A DNA stretch of 64,000 nt from Bacteroidia bacterium 43-41 (lineage in GTDB: Bacteria; Bacteroidota; Bacteroidia; Bacteroidales; Dysgonomonadaceae), in assembly GCA_001898165.1 (NCBI GenBank), contig MKTD01000011.1, forward strand, positions 186,001-250,000, given 5' to 3'. Within the stretch, counting starts at the first letter, position 1; each line of letters starts with the position of its first letter. This document shows, in pieces, positions 14,379 to 53,400 of the stretch. Below the pieces are notes generated by a model. The model was not told the DNA's origin and made no database searches. It saw only the letters and a program-made list of their open reading frames with translations. A program made the translations under genes and the position numbers.

Positions 14379-14412
14379 ATTTGGAGACAAAAGTACGAAT
14401 TTAATACGGAAT
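14379..14412. repeat. 34-bp direct repeat, copy 1 (left flank of the HEPN-MNT module)
   Basis: atttggagacaaaagtacgaatttaatacggaat; 33/34 identical to 15033-15066. Confidence 0.9.
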
Positions 14413-14432: not shown

Positions 14433-14714
14433 TTATTTGTTGATTTCTTGTTCAATAATGGAAATTAGCTCCTTAACAGGTCCGAAATAAGGCAGTACTT
14501 TTTCTTCTGTAAAGTCAAATAAATCATCATAATCGCCTTTTTGTCTCCATGTAAAAAGTTGAGAATAAATCTTTCCCATATCTTTTCGAATGACATTGTT
14601 TTTTATAAAATTTTCCGAAAAAACAGATTTAACTCCATTGTGAGTAATGGCTTTGAAGTCAGTCTCTTTTGCTCTCCGAAGACGGTATATAATCAAATCT
14701 TTTTTGGATTCCAT
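14433..14714 (-). CDS. HEPN-domain protein (likely internally shortened), partner of the MNT protein
   Basis: 93 aa; 'THNGVKSVFSENF...LFTWRQKGDYDDLFDF' typical of MNT-associated HEPN (R-x4-Y variant); overlaps the MNT stop. Confidence 0.75.
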   Translation of the reverse strand: MESKKDLIIYRLRRAKETDFKAITHNGVKSVFSENFIKNNVIRKDMGKIYSQLFTWRQKGDYDDLFDFTEEKVLPYFGPVKELISIIEQEINK

Positions 14715-15034
14715 TATTTTATTCTGATTCCTTCGTTTTGGATGTTTTCATACAAAGGTGTAAAAAAGTGTTTGTTTTCCCAGTCGGATTTAGTGTAAAT
14801 CAGGGGTGAAAAAATTTCTCCGCTTTCTAATTCCAATTCATAGAAATCATCTAAAATTTGTTGTTCATTACTGAAGGGCAACAGGGTGGTATTGAGTAAT
14901 ATCAATAAATCCCAATCTGAATCTTTCCTACTGTCATTTCTTGCTCTGGAACCGTATAAAAAAATCTCCGAATTAGGGAAATTGGCCTGAGCTAACTTCA
15001 CAATCTTATTTATAATGAGTTGTTTCCTATTCAT
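14714..15034 (-). CDS. MNT-type nucleotidyltransferase (type VII TA component)
   Basis: 106 aa with GSRARNDSRKDSDWDLLI nucleotidyltransferase signature. Confidence 0.9.
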   Translation of the reverse strand: MNRKQLIINKIVKLAQANFPNSEIFLYGSRARNDSRKDSDWDLLILLNTTLLPFSNEQQILDDFYELELESGEIFSPLIYTKSDWENKHFFTPLYENIQNEGIRIK

Positions 15035-15066
15035 TTGGAAACAAAAGTACGAATTTAATACGGAAT
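15033..15066. repeat. 34-bp direct repeat, copy 2 (right flank of the HEPN-MNT module)
   Basis: atttggaaacaaaagtacgaatttaatacggaat; contains TACTTTTG (-7-like) on the minus strand. Confidence 0.9.
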
Positions 15067-19194: not shown

Positions 19195-19665
19195 ATGAAA
19201 TTTAGAAACTTATTTATCGTTACATTGCTGGCTGTTGCAGCCATTACCACAACTGCAAGCGCACAGAGTTACAAAACCGCTTTCGGTGCCAGAATAGGGT
19301 ATGACAGCGGTATCACCTTGAAGCATTTCTTTGCTCCGGCAAACGCGCTTGAAGGTATTTTAAGCGCTTCTCCGCATTATTTTCAATTAACAGGATTGTA
19401 TGAATATCAGCAACCGCTTCCGGGAGCGCCCGGTTTGGACTGGTATGTCGGCTTGGGGGCTCACATTGGAAATGTCTATCATAAGGATCATCATGGAGGC
19501 AGTTTTTTGTTGGGAGCGGATTTGCTTGCCGGGCTTGAATACGCATTCCCTACGGCTCCTTTTGCCATCTCACTGGACTGGAAACCATCGTTCAACTTCA
19601 CCAACGACTACAACGATTACTGGTTTGCCGGCTTAGCGCTTAGCTTGCGCTACACCTTCAGGTAA
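19195..19665 (+). CDS. Small outer membrane beta-barrel-like protein of unknown function
   Basis: 156 aa; signal peptide, glycine/aromatic-rich alternating strands, C-terminal aromatic 'LSLRYTFR'. Confidence 0.7.
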   Translation: MKFRNLFIVTLLAVAAITTTASAQSYKTAFGARIGYDSGITLKHFFAPANALEGILSASPHYFQLTGLYEYQQPLPGAPGLDWYVGLGAHIGNVYHKDHHGGSFLLGADLLAGLEYAFPTAPFAISLDWKPSFNFTNDYNDYWFAGLALSLRYTFR

Positions 19666-19671
19666 GAATCA

Positions 19672-19718
19672 GATCCGGGTACTTTATAAGACCGCTTTCA
19701 GCAGAGAGCGGTTTTTTT
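19672..19718 (+). terminator. Terminator repeat copy 1
   Basis: gatccgggtactttataagaccgctttcagcagagagcggttttttt; identical to 20388-20434. Confidence 0.85.
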
Positions 19719-19725
19719 CTCGGAT

Positions 19726-19761
19726 AAAAGTTGTATTATATTATAACTTTTCATATTTTTG
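19726..19761 (+). promoter_or_regulatory. Candidate promoter/operator of higBA
   Basis: Inverted repeat aaaagttgta-N6-tataactttt (1 mismatch) between TTG (19731-19733) and TATTTTTG (19754-19761); 20-nt spacing. Confidence 0.6.
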
Positions 19762-19765
19762 TGAA

Positions 19766-20098
19766 ATGAGGCGAAGAATAGTGGCTTATGGAGGATATTA
19801 TGAAGCGTTTATGAAGACTCTAAGTAGAAATGAACGTTTAAAAATACGAAAAGCTCTGTTACTGTTTGGTGAAGAGGAAAAAATTCCTTATCACTATATT
19901 AAATATATACGCGATTCTATTTTCGAATTTAGAGTAAGTTATGGAAATAATGAATTTAGAATTTTCTTTATTTACGATGGAAATACAATTGTTGTATTAC
20001 TTAATTGTTTCAAAAAGAAAACGCAAAAAACGCCACAAAATGAAATAGAGAAAGCAATCAAATTAAAAAATGAATATTATGAACGGAAAGGAGATTGA
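19766..20098 (+). CDS. higB: HigB/RelE-type (Gp49-like) toxin
   Basis: 110 aa; 'KYIRDSIFEFRVSYGNNEFRIFFIYDGNTIVVLLNCFKKKTQKTP' typical of phage-derived Gp49-like/HigB toxins; overlaps an XRE gene. Confidence 0.88.
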   Translation: MRRRIVAYGGYYEAFMKTLSRNERLKIRKALLLFGEEEKIPYHYIKYIRDSIFEFRVSYGNNEFRIFFIYDGNTIVVLLNCFKKKTQKTPQNEIEKAIKLKNEYYERKGD

Positions 20099-20381
20099 AC
20101 TTTACGATATTAGTGCCGAATTAGAAAGAGAATTTGGTACACCCGGTTCACCCGAAAGAAGAAAGGCTGAGCAAGAAGCGTGGGAAGATTATAATGCTCA
20201 AATACTTATGAATGCCCGAAAAAATGCCCACCTTACCCAAGCTCAACTGGCAGAACGTGTGGGGGTTGACAAAGGGTATATTTCGCGTGTTGAACGTGGT
20301 TTGATAGTACCTACTATCGGTACTTTTTACAAAATTGTAGCTGCTATGGGGCTCTCGGTCGAATTACGCCCGTACACTTAA
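20070..20381 (+). CDS. higA: XRE-family antitoxin
   Basis: 103 aa; HTH 'LTQAQLAERVGVDKGYISRVERGLIVPTIGTFYKI'. Confidence 0.9.
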   Translation: MNIMNGKEIELYDISAELEREFGTPGSPERRKAEQEAWEDYNAQILMNARKNAHLTQAQLAERVGVDKGYISRVERGLIVPTIGTFYKIVAAMGLSVELRPYT

Positions 20382-20387
20382 GCGAAA

Positions 20388-20434
20388 GATCCGGGTACTT
20401 TATAAGACCGCTTTCAGCAGAGAGCGGTTTTTTT
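20388..20434 (+). terminator. Terminator repeat copy 2
   Basis: 47 bp identical to 19672-19718. Confidence 0.85.
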
Positions 20435-20650
20435 ATGATGCTTGGGCAAGTGAGGACTGTACGCTATCTTGTACCGTTGAGGGACTGAAAATCTATCCCG
20501 ACTACTACGGTTTGGAGATGATTATCGCCGTTGCTTTTCGGCTAAGCGCGGAAAGATTTCAGAAGTGGCTGATAAGGAAATGTGTAGCTTAATAAAATTC
20601 CCCAAACTTCGGGTATTCCATAAGTTGGGGGAATTTTGTTTCTTGCCCGG

Positions 20651-21427
20651 TTACAGCATCTTCAAAATCGTAGCTGCCGGCATATCCATCTTTGAGAAAG
20701 CGAACAGTTTCTTACCCAAGTCTTTGAGCGAAGCGCCAATATGATAGACTTCTGTATTGTCTATTATCACAAATCTATCGTGAGCCTGCCGGTATGTTCG
20801 GATGTTGATAGGGGCGTATTGATTGTTGTGCTTGGTCAAATCAAGGTTGAGTTGAGGGGTTATTTGCTTGGTATAGATGGTTGCCGTTACGCTGGCTTTC
20901 CTTTTACTGAGTATAAGCAACACGCTTTCATCTATATAGTTATCAATGACCACAAGCGATTTCTTTGCTGACTTTATCAGATTGGTAGCGAAAGTGTAGG
21001 CATCGAATATCTGTCCGTCGAAGAAGATACCCTCTACCGGGGGCAACGATGTGCGAACAAAAAAGTCAATCTTTTCGCTGTGTGTCGCCACTGTCCGTTC
21101 CAGCTGCTCCACACGCTTGTGAATGGCATAGCCTTTGAGCAGGTATTCTTTCAATATTTTTGTCGCCCAAATACGAAAATCCGTACCCCTTTGGCTCTTT
21201 ACACGATAGCCGACAGAAATAATAACATCCAGATTGAAATATGTTACGTTCCTTCTTACGGAACGATTTCCCTCAATTTGAACTGTCAAGGATTCCTTGA
21301 CAGTTGCTTCTCTCCGAAGTTCGCCCTCTTTAAATATGTTACTAACGTGCAGACTTATATTTTGCTTGCTCGTTTGGAACAGTTCTACCATTTGCGCCTG
21401 CGTAAGCCAAACCGTTTCATCCTCCAA
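20651..21427 (-). CDS. RhuM-family virulence-like protein, probably 5'-truncated
   Basis: 258 aa; 'EDETVWLTQAQMVELFQTSKQNISLHVSNIFKEGEL', 'YFNLDVIISVGYRVKSQRGTDFRIWA'. Homologous-looking frame extends upstream (EAVRLEVRLEDETVW) without a clear Met. Confidence 0.75.
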   Translation of the reverse strand: MEDETVWLTQAQMVELFQTSKQNISLHVSNIFKEGELRREATVKESLTVQIEGNRSVRRNVTYFNLDVIISVGYRVKSQRGTDFRIWATKILKEYLLKGYAIHKRVEQLERTVATHSEKIDFFVRTSLPPVEGIFFDGQIFDAYTFATNLIKSAKKSLVVIDNYIDESVLLILSKRKASVTATIYTKQITPQLNLDLTKHNNQYAPINIRTYRQAHDRFVIIDNTEVYHIGASLKDLGKKLFAFSKMDMPAATILKML

Positions 21428-21559: not shown

Positions 21560-21754
21560 ATGTCTGGTAATCAATATCAGTTTTTTTCGAAAGAGCAAGA
21601 AGCGTGGAAAGACTATAATGCTCAAATACTTATGAATGCCCGAAAAAATGCCCACCTTACCCAAGCTCAACTGGCAGAACGTGTGGGGGTTGACAAAGGG
21701 TATATTTCGCGTGTTGAACGTGGTTTGATAGTACCTACTATCGGTACTTTATAA
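21560..21754 (+). pseudogene. Truncated duplicate of the higA antitoxin
   Basis: 21593-21750 nearly identical to 20169-20326, then fused into a terminator repeat; lacks both ends of the antitoxin. Confidence 0.85.
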
Positions 21755-21783
21755 GACCGCTTTCAGCAGAGAGCGGTTTTTTT
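21743..21783 (+). terminator. Terminator repeat copy 3 (41 bp)
   Basis: ggtactttataagaccgctttcagcagagagcggttttttt. Confidence 0.85.
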
Positions 21784-21833
21784 ATGATTATACGCGTAAA
21801 AATCGTATTTTTGTACTTATATTATTCGAAAAA

Positions 21834-24074
21834 ATGGAGCAACTCCTCAATCAATTAAATTCCAAACAACGCGAAGCCGTTGAGTTCTGTGATGGCCCGT
21901 CGTTGATTATTGCCGGTGCCGGATCGGGAAAAACCCGCGTCCTTACCTATAAAATTGCTTATTTGCTGGAACAGGGTCTCCCGCCGTATTATATACTGGC
22001 GCTGACTTTTACCAACAAAGCCGCACGGGAAATGAAGTCGCGAATTGCCGATTTGGTGGGGGAGAAGAAAGCGCGCCAGTTGTGGATGGGAACGTTTCAC
22101 TCCATCTTTTCACGTATTCTGCGCAACGAAGCCGAAAAAATAGGGTTTACTTCAAATTTTACGATTTTCGACTCTTCCGATTCTACCAACCTGATACGCC
22201 TCATCATTAAAGAAATGCAACTGGACGATAAGATTTATAAACCCGGGGGTGTCCACAACCAGATATCGAGAGCGAAAAACGGACTGGTGACGCCCGGGAT
22301 GTACGCGCAGAACAAAGAGATCATTGAGTACGACCGCGCCTCTAAACGGCCGAGGCTCTCCGAGATCTACCAGCGTTACCAGAATCGCCTGAAGGCCGCC
22401 AACAGTATGGATTTTGACGATCTACTGATGTACACCAATATCCTGCTGCGCGATAACCCCGATGTGCTGGAAAACTATCGTAATCGTTTCCAGTTCGTGC
22501 TCGTTGACGAGTACCAGGATACCAACTTTGCGCAGCATCTTATCGTGAAGCAATTGGCCGGGCTGCATCATCGGGTCTGTGTGGTGGGCGATGACGCGCA
22601 AAGCATTTATTCGTTCCGTGGAGCCAATATCGATAATATTCTGAAATTTAAATCCACCTTTCCCCAAACACAGATATTTAAGTTAGAACAAAATTACCGG
22701 TCAACCAAGAATATTGTAAATGCGGCCAACAGCCTTATAAAGAAAAATAAAGAACAGATCTTTAAAGATGTTTTTTCGGAGAACGAGGAGGGCGACAAAA
22801 TAGAGGTGCTTAGCGCTTTTTCCGATTTTGAGGAGGGGCTTATTGTCGCTAATAAAATAGCGCGGATGCGCTACGAAGGACATGCCGGATTTTCGGATTT
22901 TGCTATCCTCTACCGCACCAACGCTCAATCGCGGATTTTTGAAGAGTCGCTGCGAAAAAAAAATATCCCCTATATCATTTATGGCGGCCTCTCTTTCTAT
23001 CAGCGGAAGGAGATTAAAGACATCATCAGCTATTTCAGGCTAATCGTGAATCCCGGCGATGAGGAGGCGTTCCGCCGCATCGTAAATTACCCGGCGCGGG
23101 GAATTGGCGATGTTACGGTGGGCAAAATAAGCGAAAGCGCCCGCCTGCATAATGTCAGCCTGTGGCAGGTGTTGTCGTCGCCGCTGCAATATAACCTGGA
23201 TGTGAATTCGGGTACGGCCAAGAGGCTCGCACTGTTTCACGAATTGATAGACGGATTCATTGCCGCTAACGAAATACAGGACGCCTGCGAACTGGCTCAA
23301 ACGGTGCTGAAAAGCACGGGTATCGTTAAGGAGGCTTACGAAGATTTAACCCCCGAAGGGATGAGCCGCGCGCAAAATATTCAGGAATTACTGAATGCAA
23401 TAAACGTGTTTGTTTCCGAAAGGCAGGAACAGGGTGACGAGAACATCCGCTTAGCGGACTTCCTTTCGGAAGTTTCACTCCTTACCGATCAGGATATGGG
23501 AGACGATGCCGATAACGAGAGAGTCACGTTGATGACGGTGCATTCTGCCAAAGGACTGGAATTTAATCATGTTTTTGTGGTGGGGATGGAAGAAGGCCTC
23601 TTCCCGTCGGATATGGCAAAATTCGAACCGCGCGGACTGGAAGAAGAAAGGCGCCTGTTTTATGTGGCTATCACCCGTGCAAAAAAAACATGTACCATTA
23701 CCTTTGCAAAGAGCCGTTTCAGAAACGGAACTACGAACATCACGCGTGAAAGCCAGTTCCTCAAGGATATCGATTCCAGATTCCTGCTGATGGAACAAAA
23801 CACATTGCCGCTTTCCGGGAGAGGAACACCCGACGGCTTTTGGGAATCGTTGCGCCGGACCCCCGTCAACCGGCCGGTCAATACTTCATTGCCACTCTCT
23901 GAAGAAGCGGAGCAGCTGAAAGAAGGAAATGTGATTGAACACGAACGATTCGGCAGGGGAGTGGTTACGGCTATTGAACAATCGGGAGGAGATAAGCGGG
24001 CTTTTGTTGAGTTCGACTCCGCCGGGCAGAAACAACTGCTGCTGAAGTTTGCCAAATTTAAAATTGTTGAATGA
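21834..24074 (+). CDS. UvrD/PcrA-type superfamily 1 DNA helicase
   Basis: 746 aa; AGAGSGKTRVLTYK, VDEYQDTN, GDDAQSIYSFRGA, TVHSAKGLEF. Confidence 0.95.
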   Translation: MEQLLNQLNSKQREAVEFCDGPSLIIAGAGSGKTRVLTYKIAYLLEQGLPPYYILALTFTNKAAREMKSRIADLVGEKKARQLWMGTFHSIFSRILRNEAEKIGFTSNFTIFDSSDSTNLIRLIIKEMQLDDKIYKPGGVHNQISRAKNGLVTPGMYAQNKEIIEYDRASKRPRLSEIYQRYQNRLKAANSMDFDDLLMYTNILLRDNPDVLENYRNRFQFVLVDEYQDTNFAQHLIVKQLAGLHHRVCVVGDDAQSIYSFRGANIDNILKFKSTFPQTQIFKLEQNYRSTKNIVNAANSLIKKNKEQIFKDVFSENEEGDKIEVLSAFSDFEEGLIVANKIARMRYEGHAGFSDFAILYRTNAQSRIFEESLRKKNIPYIIYGGLSFYQRKEIKDIISYFRLIVNPGDEEAFRRIVNYPARGIGDVTVGKISESARLHNVSLWQVLSSPLQYNLDVNSGTAKRLALFHELIDGFIAANEIQDACELAQTVLKSTGIVKEAYEDLTPEGMSRAQNIQELLNAINVFVSERQEQGDENIRLADFLSEVSLLTDQDMGDDADNERVTLMTVHSAKGLEFNHVFVVGMEEGLFPSDMAKFEPRGLEEERRLFYVAITRAKKTCTITFAKSRFRNGTTNITRESQFLKDIDSRFLLMEQNTLPLSGRGTPDGFWESLRRTPVNRPVNTSLPLSEEAEQLKEGNVIEHERFGRGVVTAIEQSGGDKRAFVEFDSAGQKQLLLKFAKFKIVE

Positions 24075-51623: not shown

Positions 51624-52508
51624 TTATTCATTCTCTTCGTAATAGTATGAATAGTCGATTCCTTTCATAAACATTTCACGGCTATTGATTTCATCCGTCA
51701 GAGCGTTTTTCAGCAGGTGTTTTATATCTGCGCTGTTTGTAGCACTTTTTATCATAGCATTCATGTACTCGGTCTTACCGATTTTGCTCCAATCAACGCA
51801 CTTTTTCAAGTTCTTTTTCAATATTAAATCCAACCAAATGCGCGTACTTCGCCCGTTGCCTTCCATGAATGGGTGAGCAATATTCATTTCCACATATTTA
51901 TCAACAATCTCGTCAAATGTGTTTTCAGGCATTTCTTCTATTTGCTTTAAAGTATTGCCGAGAAAGTGTGATACTGCAAATTGGAACCCGCCCTTTGAAA
52001 TGTTCTTTTGCCTTATCTGTCCAGCAAAATCGTAAAGCCCACCAAATAGGTAGGCATGGATTTGCTGCAAGCCTTTTGTTGTTCCAACTTCCTCTTCGTT
52101 AATGAGATTGCTCTCAAAAAAAGAATATGCCTTTTTCTTACTTTGTCCGTCAATACTGTTGTCACTATAGGTGAACCAATCAAGGAACTTTACGGCTTTG
52201 TTATTGGGAAAATGTTTGGCAAGAGAAATAACACCATCACTATCAAGTGTGTCGGCTAAACGTTTTTTGCCATCTGGAGCTATAAATTTGAAACCGTGAG
52301 TGGTACTCACAAGTTGATTTTGCTCTTTGGTTAGTTTACGTTTTAACCAACGCCAATAGTTGTTTGCTTTCGTATAATCGTCTTGTCCATAGAGTACAGC
52401 AACGACATCAACAACATTAAACCACCATTTGTTATTCTCTTCATCCCAGACAGCCCGTACCTCACGGTCGTCGAAAAAACGGATTGATATTTTTGTATTG
52501 TTGTTCAT
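51624..52508 (-). CDS. BroN-like N-terminal domain fused to a Fic/DOC AMPylase domain
   Basis: Start at MNNNTKIS; '[12 protein letters not shown]' Fic motif; N-terminus ([26 protein letters not shown]) resembles Bro-N/phage-antirepressor-type domains. Confidence 0.88.
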
Positions 52509-53307: not shown

Positions 53308-53400
53308 CTATTCATTTTCTTCATAATAATATGAATAATCAATTCCCTTCATGAACATTTCACGGCTGTTGATTTCATCCGTCAGGGCGTTTTTTAGCAA
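53308..53400 (-). pseudogene. C-terminal fragment of a second fic gene
   Basis: Encodes [30 protein letters not shown], matching the intact Fic C-terminus. Confidence 0.9.

Follow-up and report, generated by a model that had tools for sequence, protein, structure and literature searches.

A higBA toxin-antitoxin cassette between two copies of a resident terminator suggests insertion with long target duplication in Bacteroidales

Stand-alone chromosomal toxin-antitoxin (TA) modules usually lack the hallmarks of mobile elements, and the route by which they enter and leave genomes is an open question. This question is raised by a 64,000-nucleotide stretch of the Bacteroidia bacterium 43-41 genome (contig MKTD01000011.1, positions 186,001 to 250,000; hereafter the window), in which a higBA module lies between two copies of one transcription terminator. 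How did the module get there, and why is the terminator present on both of its sides?

Duplicated segments in the window

The features of the higBA site were as follows.

19195-19665, plus strand: beta-barrel-like gene (156 aa), resident, upstream of the site (open reading frame; adjoins a single terminator and pcrA in relatives with an empty site)
19671-19718, plus strand: terminator copy T1 (48 bp), resident terminator of the beta-barrel gene (identity to T2, single copy in relatives, fold)
19726-19751, plus strand: palindrome AAAAGTTGTATTATATTATAACTTTT, beginning 7 nt past T1
19766-20098, plus strand: higB toxin gene, 110 aa, Gp49/HigB family (PF05973, 2e-19)
20070-20381, plus strand: higA antitoxin gene, 103 aa, HTH_3 (PF01381, 4e-14)
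20387-20434, plus strand: terminator copy T2 (48 bp), 5 nt past the higA stop (the homologous T2 directly precedes pcrA in the relatives G009 and G008)
21834-24074, plus strand: pcrA/uvrD-like helicase gene, the right flank in the relatives compared (open reading frame list, relatives)

The toxin gene comes first and the antitoxin gene second, and the listed reading frames overlap by 29 bp. HigBA (Gp49-like) type II TA modules are defined by a gene for a Gp49/HigB domain protein and, overlapping its end, a gene for an HTH_3 antitoxin; the predicted domains assign this locus to them. As the preliminary description had it, higB and higA sit exactly between T1 and T2, and together with their promoter they make up a cassette of ~670 bp. 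The palindrome is likely to be the operator/promoter of higBA; it is equally placed after T1 in the three other genomes with higBA at this site (G009, G008 and G104). The product of the beta-barrel-like gene gave no Pfam match.

T1 and T2 are copies of a 48-bp repeat (AGATCCGGGTACTTTATAAGACCGCTTTCAGCAGAGAGCGGTTTTTTT) that agree in 48/48 bases, so that the identity reported earlier stands while the reported length of 47 bp grows by one base in each copy. The fold of the repeat is that of an intrinsic terminator, with a hairpin of ~-16 kcal/mol followed by T7, and the identity of the copies extends over 17 bases outside the hairpin. No match with 3 or fewer mismatches appeared in any dinucleotide shuffle of the window, which puts the repeat well outside chance expectation. 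A search of the bacterium's own genome (3.6 Mb) found no copies beyond this locus. Genome-wide dispersal was therefore rejected, as the repeat occupies only three places in that genome, and with it a widespread repeat lacking locus specificity in the case of this terminator. An assembly artefact was likewise rejected for higBA, since the same architecture is present in the single-contig genome G009 and in two other assemblies.

The third place is a partial terminator copy that the preliminary description had missed. It belongs to a second insert at the same site.

20169-20439, plus strand: segment of the higA 3' part, T2 and ATGAT, with a second copy at 21593-21788, the two bracketing the RhuM insert (repeat finder, sequence reading)
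20438-20590, plus strand: gene remnant (51 codons; weak PF13310 match only, E 0.044)
20591-20640, no strand assigned: inverted repeat with 19-nt arms, 89% complementary
20651-21427, minus strand: RhuM-family gene (PF13310, 4e-24; PADLOC candidate defence family PDC-S05, 9e-122, full-length match)
21593-21753, plus strand: truncated second higA copy (161 bp, middle of higA), 98% identical to 20169-20329
21743-21783, plus strand: terminator copy T3 (41 bp), fused to the truncated higA at GGTACTTT (repeat finder, sequence reading)

Because T2 and T3 both run on into ATGAT, the duplication around RhuM spans the region from mid-higA to just beyond the terminator, ~271 bp. The truncated higA and T3 are fused at the 8-mer GGTACTTT, which is present in both higA and the terminator; the second higA-terminator copy thus carries an internal deletion of 75 bp, located at this 8-bp microhomology. 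The remnant at 20438-20590 is possibly a truncated RhuM-like end left over from an earlier insert, and the inverted repeat is likely to serve as terminator of the RhuM gene. In G009 and G008 the RhuM gene is missing at this place and the higA-terminator segment occurs once before pcrA; the RhuM insert is known from this one assembly.

A further TA module is found 5 kb away.

14379-14412, no strand assigned: 34-bp repeat, left copy (33/34 identical to the right copy)
14433-14714, minus strand: HEPN-like gene (weak PF05168 match only, E 0.16)
14714-15034, minus strand: MNT nucleotidyltransferase gene (PF18765, 3.8e-9; PADLOC PDC-S09, 1.6e-18)
15033-15066, no strand assigned: 34-bp repeat, right copy (repeat finder, relatives)

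In several relatives, four of which were read at the sequence level, the 34-mer is present once and the HEPN-MNT module is absent. At these empty sites the 34-mer bridges the left and right flanks, and the blast matches of the two flanks overlap by 34 bp in G009 and G002 and by similar lengths in other relatives. Among the relatives compared, only the window genome carries the module, and a gain of HEPN-MNT is therefore likely. Read on the minus strand, the repeat runs up to the start codon of MNT and is also situated upstream of an FKBP-type gene, which means that both transcription units own a copy. The parallel that had been drawn between the two TA modules thus holds for their architecture, the empty sites of HEPN-MNT having a single 34-bp copy; that the repeat contains a promoter is suggested by its position and by a TACTTTTG motif. 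As to the shared acquisition mechanism proposed for both modules, the shared outcome suggests it and goes no further.

The window holds one more direct repeat pair, 91 bp long and 89% identical, at 51625-51715 and 53309-53399.

The higBA site in relatives

To follow the site beyond the window, 60 relatives were searched and the intergenic sequences were then read. Six relatives from three genera have a single terminator after the 156-aa gene and no higBA: G002, G004 and G001 of the same genus, and G019, G036 and G018 of two other genera of the family. In G002 and G004 the gene order is barrel gene, one terminator, pcrA. Since a single terminator stands at the barrel gene where higBA is absent, the terminator is resident, as had been claimed from the window alone, and the possibility that it is part of the TA module was rejected.

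Four genomes in two genera carry higBA at this site, namely the window genome, G009, G008 and G104. G009 and G008 show terminator, higBA and terminator, directly followed by pcrA and without RhuM, and G104 (Proteiniphilum, Dysgonomonadaceae) has higBA between two terminators that differ in their loop. HigBA identity is 90% between the window and G009 and 77% between the window and G104, and for the barrel protein the corresponding values are ~90% and 77%. The four cassettes are moreover mutual best hits among the 167 cassettes of the survey described below. HigBA divergence in step with that of the barrel protein, together with the mutual best hits, points to an old insertion plus repeated loss. 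The carriers do not group together in a MutS tree, where the empty G002 is sister to the carrier G009 and the empty G019 sister to the carrier G104. Most neighbouring genes of G002 and G009 are 98-99.8% identical, yet the cassette is precisely missing in G002.

By these comparisons, higBA at this site is probably an old insertion that has been precisely lost several times and whose terminator copies have been kept alike. This is the simplest reading, and precise losses are what recombination of T1 with T2 would yield. Some of the empty sites, at least that of G002, are more likely to be losses than states from before the insertion. A parsimonious reading turns several of the empty sites into losses, so that pre-insertion states at the higBA site are putative.

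Nor is the identity of T1 and T2 proof of a recent event. The terminator loops differ by lineage (CTTTCAGCAGAGAG in the window, TTCTCAACCGAGAG in G009 and G008), but the copies of any one genome are alike or almost alike, which argues that they have been homogenised per genome by concerted evolution. The barrel gene and higBA are 99.4-99.8% identical between G008 and G009, whereas identity falls to 92-94% in mutS and pcrA. We conclude from this near-identical stretch in a more diverged background that ordinary recombination also carries the region from one lineage to another.

A variant of this history, compatible with the explanation that we favour below, is that several lineages acquired related higBA cassettes independently, each by insertion into this terminator. 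The scattered presence over the MutS tree would agree with this, as would the repeat length of 48 bp in the window against 36 bp in G009. However, cassette divergence follows host gene divergence, and all four carriers have the same left boundary and are mutual best hits, and we regard the variant as possible, if doubtful.

Repeats around HigBA cassettes in Bacteroidales

HigB loci from the family, the order and a GTDB-based collection were reduced to 167 distinct higB-higA cassettes, and the 450-bp left flank of each was compared with its right flank, a match score of at least 20 being counted as positive. Bracketing direct repeats were present in 36 of the 167 cassettes (21.6%), as opposed to 7 of 925 matched control segments, which kept the same geometry and were slid over other stretches of these loci (Fisher p ~2e-24). 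Mismatched flank pairs, in which a left flank was paired with the right flank of other cassettes, were positive in 19 of 27,722 cases. The flanking repeats for which the preliminary description proposed a survey are thus strongly enriched around HigBA modules. When only the 16 locus-specific cassettes were considered, the enrichment gave p ~4e-9, or ~4e-7 if the four from the window's site are treated as a single case.

Locus-specificity was judged by searching each repeat in its own genome, which was done for 21 repeats. Eleven consisted essentially of the two bracketing copies only (L348, L306, L125, L179, L283, L323, L320, L351, L298, L296 and L120), with the qualification that the L120 repeat includes a 25-bp motif that recurs and that the tRNA-Gly part of the L296 repeat matches once more. 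The other ten were dispersed or not cleanly specific: nine dispersed or array-like ones were excluded, and L315, with one further diverged copy, was left uncounted. The unfiltered 21.6% therefore overstates the phenomenon. Locus-specificity of a further locus, L114, was judged from the comparison of relatives, apart from these 21 checks. Locus-specific repeats vary in length from 28 to ~270 bp, and those of the window measure 48 bp (higBA), 34 bp (HEPN-MNT) and ~271 bp (RhuM).

Candidates rejected as further cases because their repeats have other genomic copies were L074, L090, L061, L093, L166, L352, L156, L147 and L310; L094, L103 and L102 were rejected because they resemble integron arrays. 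In the latter three (with G372 contigs) HigBA lies between attC-like palindromic repeats, the L102 repeat having many genomic copies, and they appear as integron-type TA cassettes. The ~200-bp repeat of L074 has at least 10 copies in its genome, G070, is diverged in genomes of the same genus and may represent a dispersed repeat element family. The flanks of L177, L320 and L179 were not conserved in the relatives searched for empty sites. A cruder flank test was positive for 2 of 28 MNT loci, a small sample, and for 0 of 29 GNAT control loci, which are mostly long-resident genes and so no yardstick for TA genes versus other newly acquired small genes.

The duplicated DNA had been taken to be specifically an expression signal, and the survey contradicts this. 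Locus-specific duplications contain or adjoin the 3' ends of tRNA-Asn, tRNA-Gly, tRNA-Lys and tRNA-Ser genes or their terminators, the 3' ends of co-directional protein genes (L348, L114, L125 and L120) and, at one locus (L306), a gene 5' end. A tRNA was the nearest upstream feature in 4/16 locus-specific cases versus 1/116 cassettes without repeats. At L114 higBA is flanked on both sides by the 3' end of an acyl-CoA dehydrogenase gene, of which another copy follows ~1.4 kb further on; relatives such as G387, G388 and G188 have this gene end once. Three such gene ends are seen in G272:C1:215888-218501, with higBA between copies 1 and 2 and another gene region between copies 2 and 3, and G389 has two copies. 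The cassettes are short, mostly 670-850 bp, and their left boundary often lies slightly upstream of the operator palindrome. In the junctions read by eye we found no common end sequence or inverted repeats.

Insertion models and known systems

We consider it probable that a stand-alone cassette was inserted with a long target duplication of variable length, followed by conversion and loss between the repeats. Several elements of this explanation are observations: the target is resident and duplicated, the duplications vary in length and are associated with TA modules, and the cassette is precisely absent from near-identical relatives. As to the steps, the higBA cassette would enter just past the U-tract of the resident terminator, and the target stretch, here the terminator, would be duplicated so that one copy stands on each side. 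We infer that the joining is illegitimate and probably coupled to replication: an end that has stalled or broken at a hairpin or where a gene stops may copy or join the TA fragment, after which replication would restart upstream on the original template and re-copy the target. Such events might survive because the host gene retains its signal and the newcomer gains one, a terminator in the case of higBA and probably a promoter in that of MNT-HEPN. Later recombination or conversion between the direct repeats would keep the copies alike in each genome and make precise loss of the cassette possible.

Chief among the rivals, on account of the tRNA ends, is site-specific recombination in trans, in which the tyrosine recombinase of a larger element would integrate a circular TA cassette at an att site in a terminator or tRNA 3' end and so give att-TA-att arrays resembling those of integron cassettes. 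The targets among tRNA-Asn, -Gly, -Lys and -Ser 3' ends or their terminators and the over-representation of tRNA 3' ends would fit such an enzyme, as would the third copy that an extra insert leaves at the same place in both the window and L114, and some other HigBA cassettes (L094, L103 and L102) are integron-like with attC-like repeats. It accords poorly, however, with repeats ranging from 28 to ~270 bp and with targets of unrelated sequence, including the gene 5' end in L306; the junctions read have no common ends or inverted repeats and the inserts encode no recombinase, and we think this rival rather unlikely. Quite improbable, in our judgement, is Campbell-type homologous integration, by which a terminator-higBA circle, formed by recombination between the two copies, would spread between strains. 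It would account for the identical copies, and the contrast between G008 and G009 does indicate movement between lineages, but recombination in the flanking genes accounts for that contrast equally well, and the first event at each locus is left unexplained. That the repeat is accidental, with the TA module's own terminator or a convergent strong one standing on both sides by chance, draws on the recurrence of AACCGCTCTC-loop-GAGAGCGGTTTTTTT terminators with variants at this locus across genera and is extremely unlikely in view of the 48 identical bases, 17 of them outside the hairpin, the single copy that genomes lacking higBA have at the barrel gene, and the tRNA and coding sequence duplicated at other HigBA loci.

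Insertion of the cassette with target duplication, as we favour it, can be set against known systems. Group IIC introns insert after intrinsic terminators, and the insertion point in the window likewise lies directly past a U-tract; unlike these introns, the insert holds only higB and higA, has no reverse transcriptase and is accompanied by duplication of the terminator itself. Integron TA gene cassettes in attC arrays are likewise small TA units framed by direct repeats, and there too additional inserts share the site. Instead of an attC-type imperfect palindrome common to unrelated cassettes, the window repeat is a resident terminator with a simple hairpin and T-run, found nowhere else in its genome. 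Integrative elements that use tRNA 3' ends resemble the several HigBA cassettes elsewhere around which tRNA 3' ends are duplicated, but the inserts described here are ~0.7 kb long, have no integrase and use many non-tRNA targets; in the window the target is the terminator of a protein gene, and higB and higA are the only genes of the insert.

The closest precedent is that of restriction-modification genes. Insertion of such genes with long target duplication in Helicobacter pylori goes back to Nobusato, Uchiyama, Ohashi and Kobayashi (2000), according to PMC3874152, PMC3031569 and PMC1643837, and a later review (PMC3874152) puts the long and variable target duplications of restriction-modification systems at around 100 bp in order of magnitude. 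Both cases have a stand-alone addictive gene complex between long target repeats of variable length, and in both the pattern comes from comparison of related genomes and the movement is not linked to a known mobile element (PMC3874152, PMC3031569, PMC1643837). In the present loci, too, the repeats are far longer than transposon target duplications and vary in length, and there are empty relatives with one copy. The differences are that TA and RhuM modules of Bacteroidales are concerned, that the duplicated target commonly consists of a gene 3' end together with a terminator, tRNA genes included, and that the copies appear long homogenised. For TA modules with long target duplication we found no report in the literature searched, which was mostly outside subscription journals, the restriction-modification case being the only precedent. 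What is new here is, on the best reading, the extension to toxin-antitoxin modules of a mode of insertion known for restriction-modification genes.

A measurable scar, consisting of a long locus-specific target duplication, a single-copy empty site and precise loss, ties TA modules to restriction-modification genes and offers a systematic way of finding recent insertions. It also suggests why an insertion can be harmless, as a terminator or promoter is kept on each side. More tentatively, and with odds that we put on the low side, minimal TA operons may have their own mobility route without transposase or integrase, one that favours hairpins and gene 3' ends, duplicates its target and is followed by gene conversion and precise loss. 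If this is true, the turnover of chromosomal TA modules would be a defined process and not hitch-hiking on larger elements.
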